From Archangium lipolyticum (lineage in GTDB: Bacteria; Myxococcota; Myxococcia; Myxococcales; Myxococcaceae): a stretch of 64,000 nucleotides of DNA. This document shows, piece after piece, positions 1,527-26,478 of this stretch (the stretch's first letter is position 1; each line of letters begins with the position of its first letter). A model generated the notes under the pieces. That model was not told the origin of the DNA and did not search any database. It was given only the letters and a program-made list of their open reading frames with translations. Both the position numbers and the translations under genes were made by a program. Where the stretch lies: the NCBI RefSeq assembly GCF_024623785.1, contig NZ_JANKBZ010000022.1, forward strand, positions 62,001 to 126,000. Reading direction: 5' to 3'.

Positions 1527-1976
1527 TCAGCTGTCGCGATAGGCGTCGGCGATGCCGCACAGGTTCTGGATCACCACCATCCTCGTGATGAGCCCCTGGT
1601 GGAAGTCCGTGACGACCGCGTACTCGCTGCGAAAGGTCTTCCCCGTCTTCTTCACGAGGAAGGAGTCGTCCCCCAGGACGATGACCTGGTCACCGTGGTC
1701 GATGAACTCCTGGGGCCGCTCCTGGTGGAACTCGGCGATTTCAGGCAGCCGGGAGTAGTAATCGATCACGGCCTGCTTGCCGCGGAACTCTCCGCTGAGG
1801 GGCGTTCCGTCCGGAATCGTCACCTTCCAGACCACGTCTTCCGCCATGTGGTCGAGCAAGGGCTTCGCATCCATCACCCTGTCCATCTCCTCGAAAATCC
1901 ACTTCAAGAGACCCGCGTTGTCCTTCGACATGCGCGCGCCTGTCCCCAGCTCCATTTCCGCGACCGTGCTCTCCAT
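1527..1976 (-). CDS. SnoaL-like / NTF2-like polyketide-cyclase fold protein
   Basis: 149 aa. The ATG at 1976 is chosen because a GAAAGGGA ribosome site precedes it; the longer frame upstream reads through a promoter region. The pattern is that of SnoaL/ketosteroid-isomerase-like small proteins: a helix-rich start with LLKWIFEEMDR, then DVVWKVTIPDGTPLSGEFRG and a central FIDHGDQVIVLGDD strand pair. Such proteins bind hydrophobic ligands; some are cyclases or isomerases and others act in stress tolerance. The substrate here is unknown. It is divergent from the AraC regulator at 2148. The shared intergenic region carries a direct-repeat element (2071-2114) that is repeated at 3827, so it is a likely target of that regulator. 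Confidence 0.75.
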   Translation of the reverse strand: MESTVAEMELGTGARMSKDNAGLLKWIFEEMDRVMDAKPLLDHMAEDVVWKVTIPDGTPLSGEFRGKQAVIDYYSRLPEIAEFHQERPQEFIDHGDQVIVLGDDSFLVKKTGKTFRSEYAVVTDFHQGLITRMVVIQNLCGIADAYRDS

Positions 1977-2070
1977 GACCGTTCCCTTTCTTTCAAGCCC
2001 GCTGGAGCAGCGATCCAGCCAGGCACCTTTCATATGGAAAGATGCGGACCACGCTCGAAGTGAGCACCGC

Positions 2071-2114
2071 GAGGACTGACCCGATGCGCCAGAGTGACTT
2101 GCAGGACGCGCCAC
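2071..2114 (-). promoter_or_regulatory. candidate AraC-family operator, copy A
   Basis: Read on the minus strand, this 44-bp block matches the block at 3827-3870 at 37 of 44 positions. Both contain the hexamer TGGCGC twice, 22 bp apart (TGGCGCGTCC then TGGCGCAT), about two helical turns. That is the spacing expected for the two half-sites of an AraC-family activator. It lies 95 bp upstream of the SnoaL-like gene and 34 bp from the AraC start, so autoregulation is possible. Seen: the repeat and the conservation. Inferred: the binding protein. Confidence 0.5.
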
Positions 2115-2147
2115 ATCTCCCTAGCGTTTTCCTGGAGGCGCACGCGG

Positions 2148-3227
2148 ATGACCCATCCGTCCATCCAGATCTCCGCTCGTCTGGCACTCCCCCAGCTGGC
2201 ACTGGCCCGGCGGCGTGGACTGGATGAGAGCTCGCTCTGCCAGGATGCGGGCCTGGACCCCGCCGTGCTGCGGGACCCCGAGGCACGTATTCCCCTCTCC
2301 GCGTTCGAGCGGCTGATGGAGGCGCTCGCTTCCCGGGTGAAGGAGCCCACGTTGGGGCTCGAGCTGGCGCGGGAGTTCACGCTGGAAGCCTATGGCGTCG
2401 GTGGGCTGGTGCTGATGGCCAGTCCCACGCTACGAGAGGGCTTCGAACGGGCCTTTCGCTACCAGCGGCTCTGGGAGGATTTCGAGCGCCTCGCCCTGGA
2501 GCCCTGTGAGGGTGGCGGCAGGCTCCGCTTCCTCTCGCATGAGCCACGGCGGCCGGTCCACTGGCTCCTCGCGGAGTGCATCCTGGCGGAGCTGCTGCTG
2601 GCGACACGTGCGCTCACCGCCACGCCCGTGGTGCCCCTGTGGGTGCACTTCGAACACGAGCCCCCCTCCGACACCTCTGCGCACGAGGCCTTCTTCGGCA
2701 CTCCGGTCTTCTTCGGAGCACCGACCACGGAGATTGCCTTCTCCAACGCCACGCTGGACCTGCCGCTCACCCACGCCAACGCGCTCTTCCTCTCCTTCTT
2801 CGAGCAACAGGCGAAGGTGAAGGTCGAGCAGTTGCCTTCCACGAGCCTGTTGAGCGAGCAGGTGCGGACGGCGCTGCGCGGGGCACTGGGCGGTGGGGAT
2901 TACAGCCTGGTGGCGGTGGCGGCGAAGCTCCACATGAGCCCTCGTACCCTCCAGCGCCGGCTGAGAGAGGAGGGAATCAGCCATGAGGTGCTGCTCGATG
3001 GGCTTCGGCAGGAGTTGGCGAGGGTCTACCTGGAGAAGCGGCTGAGCATCTCCGAGATCTCCTTCCTGCTGGGCTATTCCAACCCGACGGCCTTCCACCG
3101 GGCCTTCAAGCGCTGGACGGGCTCCAGCCCCGAGTACTACCGGGCGCGCTCCGGCGCCCGGGGCGGGCCGGAAACGTCTCCTCCCACCTTCATGACATGG
3201 GGACGGGCCAGCAGCCGCTCGACATAG
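2148..3227 (+). CDS. AraC-family transcriptional regulator (OruR/ArgR-like N-domain)
   Basis: 359 aa. The start at 2148 has GGAGG nine bases upstream; a longer in-frame start at 2094 lacks one. Residues ~1-190 match the arabinose-binding-type domain typical of OruR-like AraC regulators (LGLELAREFTLEAYGVGGLV). The last ~100 residues are a double helix-turn-helix with AAKLHMSPRTLQRRLREEG and the family signature ISFLLGYSNPTAFHRAFKRW near the C terminus. It is divergent from the SnoaL-like gene, and its 3' end overlaps the convergent GST gene by 91 bp. The two flanking intergenic regions carry the same 44-bp direct-repeat element, which suggests a local regulon of detoxification genes. Confidence 0.9.
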   Translation: MTHPSIQISARLALPQLALARRRGLDESSLCQDAGLDPAVLRDPEARIPLSAFERLMEALASRVKEPTLGLELAREFTLEAYGVGGLVLMASPTLREGFERAFRYQRLWEDFERLALEPCEGGGRLRFLSHEPRRPVHWLLAECILAELLLATRALTATPVVPLWVHFEHEPPSDTSAHEAFFGTPVFFGAPTTEIAFSNATLDLPLTHANALFLSFFEQQAKVKVEQLPSTSLLSEQVRTALRGALGGGDYSLVAVAAKLHMSPRTLQRRLREEGISHEVLLDGLRQELARVYLEKRLSISEISFLLGYSNPTAFHRAFKRWTGSSPEYYRARSGARGGPETSPPTFMTWGRASSRST

Positions 3228-3751
3228 GCATCGATTGCAGGCCGGCCGGTCGGCGAGGCCCACCTCCGCATCCATATGCACATCGAGCCGATCATCACGT
3301 CGGCCGCGGTGAACCAGTCACCAAACAGATAAGGTCCCTTGCCCAGCTCCTCTTCGACCACATTCAGCGCCGTCTCGAAGTCCGTCCAGCCACGCTGGGG
3401 CAGCGTCTCCACCTTCAGCATCCTGTCTGCCATGGCGGGTTCGAGTTGCGAGGTCGAATACACCATCAGGGAGAGATAGCGCCCCCGCTCCGGCGAGCCG
3501 ATCTTCGGCGCGAGGTTGGCCTGGGGGTACTTGTCGGCGAGGTACAAACAGATGGCCGCTCCCTCGAACACCTTCGTCTCGCCATCCACCAGCGCCGGCA
3601 GCTTGCCGGCGGGGTTGATCTTCAGGAACTCCGGCGTCTTGTGCTCGCGCTTCGCGAAGTCGATGGGCACGAGTTCGTACTCCGCACCACACTCATCGAG
3701 CATCCACTTGCTGACGACCGCGCGGCTTTGGGGATTGAAGTAGAGCTTCAT
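3137..3751 (-). CDS. glutathione S-transferase family protein
   Basis: 204 aa, the normal length for the family. The start at 3751 follows a GGAGGAG ribosome site. The N-terminal thioredoxin-fold half has NPAGKLPAL at ~46-54, with the cis-proline used to hold glutathione, and EGAAICLYLADKY at ~63-75. The C-terminal half is the all-helical domain (GKGPYLFGDWFTAADVMIGS). Family members conjugate glutathione or related thiols to electrophiles or reduce peroxides in the cytoplasm. The 3' end overlaps the AraC gene on the other strand. It shares its upstream region with the alpha/beta hydrolase at 4035, where operator copy B lies. The substrate cannot be told. Confidence 0.88.
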   Translation of the reverse strand: MKLYFNPQSRAVVSKWMLDECGAEYELVPIDFAKREHKTPEFLKINPAGKLPALVDGETKVFEGAAICLYLADKYPQANLAPKIGSPERGRYLSLMVYSTSQLEPAMADRMLKVETLPQRGWTDFETALNVVEEELGKGPYLFGDWFTAADVMIGSMCIWMRRWASPTGRPAIDAYVERLLARPHVMKVGGDVSGPPRAPERAR

Positions 3752-3826
3752 CGGTTCTCCTCCGAAACAATGTGAGTCCTGAACGATGGATCCGCGAGGC
3801 CGTTCATGTGAGTGGCTCGCTCAGGC

Positions 3827-3870
3827 GTGGCGCGTCCGGTAAGTCATTCTGGCGCATGCGGCCAGTCCCC
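3827..3870 (+). promoter_or_regulatory. candidate AraC-family operator, copy B
   Basis: Counterpart of the block at 2071-2114 (37/44 identical), in opposite genomic orientation. It has the same pair of TGGCGC hexamers 22 bp apart. It lies in the 283-bp region between the GST (start 3751) and the hydrolase (start 4035), so it could serve either gene. The conservation in two non-homologous promoter regions flanking one AraC gene argues for a binding site rather than decayed coding DNA. Confidence 0.5.
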
Positions 3871-3885
3871 TTGGAGACACCCGTC

Positions 3886-3926
3886 GAACAACGCCTGGCC
3901 GGGCCTCACCAGGCCCAGGTGGAAGC
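3886..3926 (+). repeat. 41-bp duplicate of an internal piece of the downstream hydrolase gene
   Basis: This intergenic stretch matches 5093-5134 inside the hydrolase gene, with one mismatch and one single-base gap. The gene copy encodes NNARPGLTKAQVEA. The upstream copy contains a perfect small inverted repeat, GGGCCT-CACC-AGGCCC. It may be a remnant of a duplicated hydrolase gene or a piece captured by recombination, sitting between operator copy B and the hydrolase start. The rest of 3752-4034 shows no gene. Confidence 0.55.
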
Positions 3927-4034: not shown

Positions 4035-5501
4035 ATGAAGCATCCCACTTTTGCAGCCGTGGTCGCGGTCTGGGGCGCACTCGTCTTGAGCGGTTCTTCG
4101 CACGCGTCCGATCAGGGCACGGCGGCCCGTGCCGATGAGTTCATCGGTTGCCCGGACGCGAAGGAGGATGACGCCCTCGCCGGCTCCCTCTGCGCTCGCT
4201 TCAGCGCACCGTTGGACTACGCGGATCCGAGCCGTGAGAGGATCGAGCTTTTCATCCGCAAGTTCCCGGCTCCGGGGCGATCGGCCGGGCAGGTCTGGCT
4301 CGTGGCGGGCGGGCCCGGCGAGTCAGGGGCTTCGTTCTACCCTCTGCTGAAGACCCTGCGGGCCGCCTTCCCGGGATATGACCTGCTGGTCCCCGATCAT
4401 CGCGGGACCGGTTTCTCGAGCCGGCTCTGCCAGAAGGAGGAGGCCGCCGACAGCGACGGTGGCTCCGCGCTTCAAGGCGCCGAGTGGGCGACATGCTTCG
4501 AGGCGCTGGAGTCCGATTCCAAGCGCACCCGCGCCTTCACCATCACCCACGCCGCCTACGATCTGCGCGCGCTGATGGAGCGCTACTCCGCCGGCCGGCC
4601 GACGTGGCTCTATGGGGTCTCCTACGGCACGCAGCTGGTGTTGCGCATGATGACGGTCGCCCCACCGCGGCGCCTCGAGGGGATCGTGCTCGATTCCCTC
4701 GTCCCTCCGGAAACGGCCGAGCAATGGGACCTCAGCCATCGCTCTGCCGTCGTCGACGAGGTGGGCCGCGCGGTTCTCGCGCAGTGTGATGCGGACCCGG
4801 GCTGCCGTGCTCGTCTCGGAGGCTCGGCGGTTGCCGCCATGCAGGGGCTCGTCGACGACTCCAAGTTGTCCGCGTCCGTCCCCGGGGGGCGTCCGAAACT
4901 CTTCTTCGGCGCACTGTTGGATGGCCCGGAGCTGCGGGCGCGGATTCCCCTGGTCCTCGCGGGCCTGAGGGGCGGCGACCTCGAGCCATTGCGGCAGGTC
5001 CAGCAGGACCTGGAGGCACTGAACGCCCAGTTCGGCCGTTTTCCGCAGTCGTCGATGTCCATCCCGCTCGTCAGTGTCATCAGCGCATCCGAGAACAACG
5101 CCCGGCCGGGCCTCACCAAGGCCCAGGTGGAAGCCGAAGCCGCCCGGTTCCTGTTCGTCAGCAGCCTGCCGGGCCAGCTCGTCGGTCGGGCGTCTCTGGC
5201 CTATCCGCGCGACGAGTGGTTCGGCCGGTCTCCCACCGCTCTTCCGCCAGTCCTCGTTCTCCAGGGCGACATGGACCCCAAGACACCCCATGCTGGCGCC
5301 CAGGCCCATATCCGGCTCCTGCCCAAAGCCGCTGGCGTCAATCTGTTCACCGTCAAGGGCGGGCCGCACTTCCTGCTCTTCACGGCGCCAGATTGCTTCA
5401 AGGCCGCGGTGAGCACCTTCGTCCAGAAGCGGCGAGCGCCTCGTGCGGCCTGCTCGATTCGACCCCTAGCATCATCGGGCCGGGGTCAGCCCCATCAATA
5501 G
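4035..5501 (+). CDS. secreted alpha/beta hydrolase, TAP-like peptidase family
   Basis: 488 aa. The start at 4035 gives a cleavable signal peptide ending near SGSSHASD, so the product is exported. The N-terminal half is an alpha/beta-hydrolase fold: oxyanion region VAGGPGESG, then DHRGTGFSS, and the nucleophile elbow GVSYGTQ with Ser196. The C-terminal part resembles the TAP-like cap/C-domain, with acid LQGDMDPKTP and histidine in KGGPHFLL. Members of this family release N-terminal peptides or amino acids, or hydrolyse esters. Upstream lie operator copy B and a 41-bp duplicate of the gene's own sequence. The last ~20 residues are low-complexity and may be a run-through tail. Confidence 0.82.
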   Translation: MKHPTFAAVVAVWGALVLSGSSHASDQGTAARADEFIGCPDAKEDDALAGSLCARFSAPLDYADPSRERIELFIRKFPAPGRSAGQVWLVAGGPGESGASFYPLLKTLRAAFPGYDLLVPDHRGTGFSSRLCQKEEAADSDGGSALQGAEWATCFEALESDSKRTRAFTITHAAYDLRALMERYSAGRPTWLYGVSYGTQLVLRMMTVAPPRRLEGIVLDSLVPPETAEQWDLSHRSAVVDEVGRAVLAQCDADPGCRARLGGSAVAAMQGLVDDSKLSASVPGGRPKLFFGALLDGPELRARIPLVLAGLRGGDLEPLRQVQQDLEALNAQFGRFPQSSMSIPLVSVISASENNARPGLTKAQVEAEAARFLFVSSLPGQLVGRASLAYPRDEWFGRSPTALPPVLVLQGDMDPKTPHAGAQAHIRLLPKAAGVNLFTVKGGPHFLLFTAPDCFKAAVSTFVQKRRAPRAACSIRPLASSGRGQPHQ

Positions 5502-22435: not shown

Positions 22436-22891
22436 GTGCCGCCTCTGCCCGAGTTCCTGCTTCAAGCTGCTGAAGAAGCTCTCCACCACGGCGTTGTCCA
22501 AGCAGCTGCCCTTGCGCGACATGCTGCATTGAATCCCGCGAGCGGCCAGCGCCTGCTGGTAATCGGTGCTGGCGTACTGGCTGCCCCGGTCCAAGTGGTG
22601 CACACCTCCTTGCGCAACCGGACCAACTCCTCCCGCTCGGCCGTGGAGAGCGCGCCTGCCGACTCCTTGCCCTCGCCTCCGTCCGCCTCGCGCACCCAGT
22701 TACGCAGGGCCGATTCCGTCAGGTCGATGTCGTTGGCCACCTGGGGCAGGCTCTTGCTGCCCTCTCGCGCCAGCCGGACCGCCTCGGCCCTGAACTCCGG
22801 GGTGAAACTCCGCCTCTTCCTTCGCTCCATGAACACTACCTCCCGTGTAGCCGACTTACGAGGTGTGTCCACAAAATCGGGGCAGGCTCAC
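22436..22891 (-). mobile_element. IS3-family remnant, left copy (internally deleted)
   Basis: Minus strand. OrfA starts at 22830 (MERRKRRSFTPEFRAEAVRL) with its HTH ([19 protein letters not shown]). After LVRLRKEV it jumps into the end of orf[21 protein letters not shown] and [20 protein letters not shown], which hold the second Asp and the Glu of the DDE site. The first Asp and most of orfB are deleted, as is the far end, so the copy is dead. Its orfA-side end from 22891 inward (GTGAGCCTGCCCCGATTTTG) is identical to that of the right copy at 26134. Confidence 0.85.
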
Positions 22892-26133: not shown

Positions 26134-26478
26134 GTGAGCCTGCCCCGATTTTGTGGACACACCTCGTAAGTCGGCTACACGGGAGGTAGTGTTCATGGAG
26201 CGAAGGAAGGGGCGGAGTTTCACCCCGGAGTTCAGGGCCGAGGCGGTCCGGCTGGCGCGAGAGGGCAGCAAGAGCCTGCCCCAGGTGGCCAACGACATCG
26301 ACCTGACGGAATCGGCCCTGCGTAACTGGGGGCGCGAGGCGGACGGAGGCGAGGGCAAGGAGTCGGCAGGCGCGCTCTCCACGGCCGAGCGGGAGGAGTT
26401 GGTCCGGTTGCGCAAGGAGGTGCGTCATCTGGAGATGGAGCGCGACTTCCTGAAAAAAGCGGCGGCCTTCTTCGCGAA
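26134..26478 (+). mobile_element. IS3-family remnant, right copy (orfA only)
   Basis: Plus strand, in inverted orientation to the copy at 22436-22891. It retains the orfA-side end and orfA from 26195, through the HTH to the coiled coil LEMERDFLKKAAAFFAKE, then breaks off; orfB is absent. The orfA proteins differ at only a few residues (RRKG versus RRKR; NWG versus NWV), so both descend from one element. After the break the DNA belongs to a GlxA-like remnant. Confidence 0.85.

Follow-up and report, generated by a model that had tools for sequence, protein, structure and literature searches.

Two tandem-repeat elements as predicted operators of an AraC-family regulator beside SnoaL-like and glutathione S-transferase-like genes of Archangium lipolyticum

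SphR of Pseudomonas aeruginosa is an AraC-family regulator whose operator features two direct-repeat half-sites (TGNCCSNNRNNSNCC) located 6–8 bp apart, giving a period of ~21–23 bp. The regulator is encoded divergently from its main target, sphA, responds to sphingosine as its ligand and controls a small regulon of several promoters including sphA, sphBCD and cerN (PMC3900636). The Pm promoter of Pseudomonas putida carries two 15-bp direct repeats with a 5' A-box and a 3' B-box that are read by the two HTH motifs of XylS, and the sites of the activator and of RNA polymerase overlap at this promoter (PMC5481539). The half-site of the AraC/XylS-type regulator ArgR of Pseudomonas is TGTCGC-N6-GNAA, with two such sites arranged in tandem 5 bp apart (PMC10963909). 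A literature search on TGGCGC in connection with AraC, on QhpR operators and on AraC or GST in Myxococcus returned nothing usable.

In the 64-kb stretch of A. lipolyticum DNA analysed here (the window), we identified two copies of a 44-bp element, el1 and el2, in the intergenic regions around an AraC-family gene. Judging from the sequence, we consider both to be operators of this AraC protein, with SnoaL predicted to be activated, araC autorepressed and GST included in the same regulon (probability roughly 0.86). The features of the locus are as follows.

1527–1976, minus strand: gene of a SnoaL-like protein (149 aa, PF12680, Pfam), divergent from araC; proposed first target.
2050–2078, minus strand: predicted SnoaL promoter, with B2 (CAGTCC) replacing the -35, a 17-bp spacer and the candidate -10 AGCGTG at 2055–2050.
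2071–2114, minus strand: predicted operator el1 (44 bp), reading towards the SnoaL gene; boxes A1 TGGCGC 2113–2108, B1 AAGTCA 2100–2095, A2 TGGCGC 2091–2086 and B2 CAGTCC 2078–2073.
2099–2127, plus strand: predicted araC promoter, TTGCAG 2099–2104 (inside el1, over B1), 17 bp, TAGCGT 2122–2127.
2148–3227, plus strand: gene of the AraC-family regulator (359 aa; Arabinose_bd PF12625 and HTH_18), proposed binder of both operators.
3137–3751, minus strand: glutathione S-transferase-like (GST) gene (204 aa, Pfam); proposed second target.
3827–3870, plus strand: predicted operator el2 (44 bp), 76 bp upstream of the GST start and reading away from GST; boxes A1 3828–3833, B1 AAGTCA 3841–3846, A2 3850–3855 and B2 CAGTCC 3863–3868.
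4035–5501, plus strand: alpha/beta-hydrolase gene with a TAP-like C-terminus (Pfam); probably outside the regulon.

The AraC protein matched PF12625 over positions 24–207 (E=5.8e-46) and HTH_18 over positions 258–334 (E=1.5e-19) in Pfam. This combination of an N-terminal Arabinose_bd domain and a C-terminal double HTH is that of the Arabinose_bd (PF12625) subgroup of the AraC/XylS family, and the HTH motifs are conserved with the operator-bearing clade described below. Its best full-length family matches were QhpR (197 bits) and GliR (190.9 bits), which are below the respective curated cut-offs of 250 bits (NF049968) and 570 bits (NF050186), and we filed it under neither name. The nearest match in the PDB was the VirS structure 8rcx (E=2e-26).

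Direct alignment of the reverse complement of 2071–2114 with 3827–3870 gave 37 identical bases out of 44, with the starts of the two TGGCGC hexamers separated by 22 bp in each, as the first-pass annotation had reported; its placement of the second site between GST and the hydrolase was also correct. The similarity is confined to the 44-bp element and ends at its borders. Read in their own directions, el1 is TGGCGC-GTCCTGC-AAGTCA-CTC-TGGCGC-ATCGGGT-CAGTCC and el2 is TGGCGC-GTCCGGT-AAGTCA-TTC-TGGCGC-ATGCGGC-CAGTCC. In the element, two 22-bp half-sites stand head to tail in tandem, each composed of the A-box TGGCGC, 7 bp and a B-box (A/C)AGYC, and because of this composition the similarity extends beyond the hexamers to span 44 bp. 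A pair of direct-repeat half-sites ~21–22 bp apart, both containing an A- and a B-box, as expected of an AraC-type operator, was thus present in el1, in el2 and in the family, which bears out the earlier proposal of AraC-type half-site geometry and a definable operator.

An ungapped all-against-all comparison of 44-mers on both strands of the 64-kb window returned three classes at 37/44 or better, namely coding tandem repeats at 13.7–15.5 kb, one long inverted repeat (22603/26379) and the el1/el2 pair. As the only class outside the coding tandem repeats and the long inverted repeat, the el1/el2 match is well beyond chance. A chance likeness of two GC-rich intergenic stretches draws what credit it has from the hexamer pair TGGCGC-N16-TGGCGC, which by itself has 15 exact copies in the 12.6-Mb genome and, at two mismatches, shows no excess in the window (33 found against 28 expected); for the same reasons this pair, previously put forward as diagnostic, is a weak signature and was discarded. 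The hexamer pair combined with the AAGTCA-NTC core matched exactly only at el1 and el2 in the whole 12.6-Mb genome. The two matches to this core with three mismatches, on contigs C3 and C4, were both directly upstream of other AraC paralogues (C4:462722–463723 and C3:188124–189074). Chance likeness is refuted by the conservation of the element in Archangium lansinium and family-wide, and we give it practically no weight. Elsewhere in the window, the arms of a 289-bp inverted repeat (22603–22891 and 26134–26422, 99% complementary) flank ~3.2 kb with MarR-like and MFS-type transporter genes; a composite element and an IS remnant are both possible readings.

The locus of A. lansinium contains an AraC orthologue (85% identical) and, in the same position divergent from it, a SnoaL protein (80% identical), and the 28-bp core of el1 is identical between the two species. 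GST is found on the other side of SnoaL and in the other relative orientation, with the second operator upstream of it, after a vWA-type gene. Over positions 3137–3227 the 3' ends of araC (plus) and GST (minus) overlap by ~90 bp in the window; the C-terminus of araC differs here from that of A. lansinium, so a rearrangement junction seems to fall in this stretch. The hydrolase was not found in the A. lansinium locus. Since operator and GST travel together through the rearrangement, into a locus lacking the hydrolase, the latter appears incidental; GST is likely to be the second target, and the hydrolase is unlikely to hold this role. The compact AraC regulon suggested in the first-pass annotation is retained as likely for SnoaL and GST, both of which keep their operator in A. 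lansinium, but probably not for the hydrolase. The accompanying idea, that one compound is detoxified or degraded, is a guess, because proteins resembling SnoaL and GST have many different roles and the relatives of this regulator adjoin a methyltransferase-like or Rieske gene.

Upstream of the GST orthologues in genome G003 (94–95% identical) and genome G004, and of a paralogue in the genome of the window, the DNA is unrelated and has no operator, and thus GST appears to have come under the operator in the branch of A. lipolyticum and A. lansinium. That such orthologues manage without an el2-type operator also suits a different reading, in which el1 is a genuine operator and el2 a relic or passenger of the rearrangement that placed GST, exerting no control over it. 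The orientation of el2, reading away from GST, fits the relic, as does the promoter arrangement: GST occupies the position that araC has relative to el1, yet the araC-type -10 (TAGCGT) is absent there. The B2 region of the second site in A. lansinium has moreover drifted to CAGCCA, leaving the 44 bp of el2 conserved only in part. Against this, the 28-bp core of el2 is kept at 26 of 28 positions between two species of differing gene order, it lies 76–108 bp upstream of the GST start in both, and A1, B1 and A2 are intact in both. We therefore regard a relic as unlikely, if far from negligible, and retain el2 as a predicted operator of GST.

Two further observations concern the surroundings of el2. 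Between GST and the hydrolase, the 31-bp stretch 3886–3916 shares 90% identity with 5093–5123 inside the hydrolase gene, as if it were the remnant of a deleted second hydrolase copy beside el2. A short reading frame between el2 and GST (3752–3812, minus strand), starting ATGAACGGCCTCGCGG, has a counterpart at 1610–1676 of locus L035; as read by eye, it ends in both species, despite an indel, in a TGA that shares bases with the GST start codon (ATGA). This frame is possibly a translated leader or a chance occurrence.

A 41-bp operator pattern was found with up to three mismatches in 44 of the 96 genomes of the family, normally in one copy each, compared with a handful of matches to the reversed pattern. 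With up to two mismatches, the reversed pattern gave zero matches in 145 genomes of the order, and the operator pattern itself had none outside the family among these genomes. Nearly all of the 46 loci collected have the operator between an AraC gene 42–47% identical to that of the window and a divergent 270-aa gene that we call methyltransferase-like. This target matched no Pfam family at E 0.001, so its name is a lead resting on inspection (a motif-like glycine-rich LDLGSGGSG). In a third group of regulators, present in four genomes of the genus, AraC is 36–37% identical to that of the window and the operator reads TGGCGC-N7-CAKTCC-TTC-TGNCGC-N7-CACTC; the divergent gene encodes a Rieske protein in the one genome examined, that of the window. 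The operator-bearing regulators of the three groups form one clade (tree support 0.94), with targets that are predicted methyltransferase-like proteins in most cases, Rieske proteins, or the SnoaL/GST variant, which is restricted to two genomes of one genus (the window's genome and A. lansinium). Two loci inside the clade, L040 (AraC 48% identical) and L049, had no recognisable operator within 500 bp upstream. The first-pass annotation had named three outcomes that would count against the element: random occurrence across the genome, lack of conservation at orthologous loci and lack of binding by AraC. The full core is not scattered in this way, and with the element kept in A. lansinium and the same grammar found beside related AraC genes family-wide, it has come through two of the three.

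These distributions bear on two other explanations. The GST block beside the two copies differs in order and orientation between the two genomes, as might be seen if the repeat were mobile or recombinational (a MITE or a recombination site, for instance). However, the 44 genomes have about one copy each, located next to araC at a fixed position, and no dispersed copies; a lack of dispersed copies or of target-site footprints, which would speak against such a repeat, is thus largely seen. Its conservation is limited to the A- and B-boxes and its spacing to promoter-like hexamers is fixed. A repeat of this kind is very improbable. Alternatively, the operator pair could serve a different regulator and not the adjacent AraC, as three loci (L081, L093 and L094) combine the operator with a methyltransferase-like gene and no adjoining AraC gene. 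Nonetheless, nearly all other loci have an adjoining AraC of this clade, and in one of the three (G004) it lies ~4 kb away, where inserted genes have split it from operator and target and the operator at its own promoter has decayed. In addition, the 22-bp tandem of A- and B-boxes has AraC-type geometry, and the B-box variants differ between regulator subgroups. We consider a different regulator improbable and assign the operators to the adjacent AraC.

In L184 (G004:C1:2437000–2444500) the full operator and the methyltransferase-like target stay together, whereas the AraC-side operator decays, a natural promoter-splitting experiment. L089 (G034:C16:33791–33831; L047) has kept the operator and the araC promoter, and the divergent methyltransferase-like gene is cut to a C-terminal tail fused close to the promoter.

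The position of the boxes relative to promoter-like hexamers is similar across the clade. Of the 43 operators situated in or next to AraC loci, 37 have TTGCNN (overlapping B1 in reverse)-N17/18-TANNNT on the araC side, compared with none of the three operators lacking an adjacent AraC gene. On the other side, B2 and the candidate -10 of the divergent gene are 17 bp apart throughout the clade. Most methyltransferase-like loci feature B2-N17-GGCACC or a close variant, with the ATG 37–38 nt from the start of B2, so their mRNAs would be leaderless or nearly so. The Rieske group has the same layout, with B2-N18-TACATT followed by the ATG. The candidate SnoaL -10, AGCGTG, is a poor match to consensus. 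Such a layout would be of class-II type for the target gene and occluding for araC.

By analogy with AraC/XylS proteins, one AraC monomer would occupy each 22-bp half-site, with HTH1 on the A-box and HTH2 on the B-box. With B2, the B-box nearer the promoter, standing in for the -35 of SnoaL at el1, the regulator would, once bound to its ligand, be a class-II activator of SnoaL. Binding would at the same time repress araC, as the distal half-site would cover the -35 and the spacer of the araC promoter, and el2 would draw the neighbouring GST into the same regulon. Binding, activation with autorepression and ligand control are what we infer from this arrangement.

Both HTH1 (PRTLQR) and the A-box are invariant in the clade. 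The sequence of HTH2 varies together with the B-box: GYSNPTAFHRAFKRWTG is associated with AAGTCA, GY[AG][DE]P..FHRAFKRWWG with AAGCCG and GY.APSAFHHAFRRWTG with CAKTCC. Based on these two or three lineage changes, we hypothesise that HTH1 reads the A-box and HTH2 the B-box. The data lean somewhat towards a history in which the clade kept its A/B-box operator nearly unchanged and exchanged targets three ways, with GST recruited in one branch via a second operator copy, and only the B-box and HTH2 drifted. If this is true, the drift of B-box and HTH2 between subgroups is a natural series for the DNA specificity of AraC HTH motifs. The locus further yields a precise predicted operator of an AraC subfamily that is uncharacterised and retained throughout one myxobacterial family, naturally occurring operator variants (about fifty) together with their regulators, and a documented case of regulon growth in the GST orthologues without the operator and the GST genes with it. 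The practical consequence is modest, namely fewer candidate genes to assay and fewer bases to mutate.

In comparison with the known systems, the locus can be likened to SphR in its operator and gene layout, with an AraC-type gene divergent from the main target, two direct-repeat half-sites and a predicted small regulon of several promoters, although the half-site here is TGGCGC-N7-(A/C)AGYC and the targets differ. ArgR has an A-box resembling TGGCGC, and TGTCGC itself serves as A2 in several operators of the family; its B-box, spacing and many-promoter arginine regulon are different. The boxes of XylS are TGCA and GGTA, 6 bp apart, whereas those found here are TGGCGC and (A/C)AGYC, 7 bp apart, and XylS also differs from the window's AraC in its N-terminal domain and effector. 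Judging by the layout at el1, the regulator would activate the target and repress its own gene, in the manner of SphR/XylS-type systems. The operator pair is very probably an ordinary AraC-type gene switch of this known kind, whose layout is kept with other targets in dozens of related bacteria.
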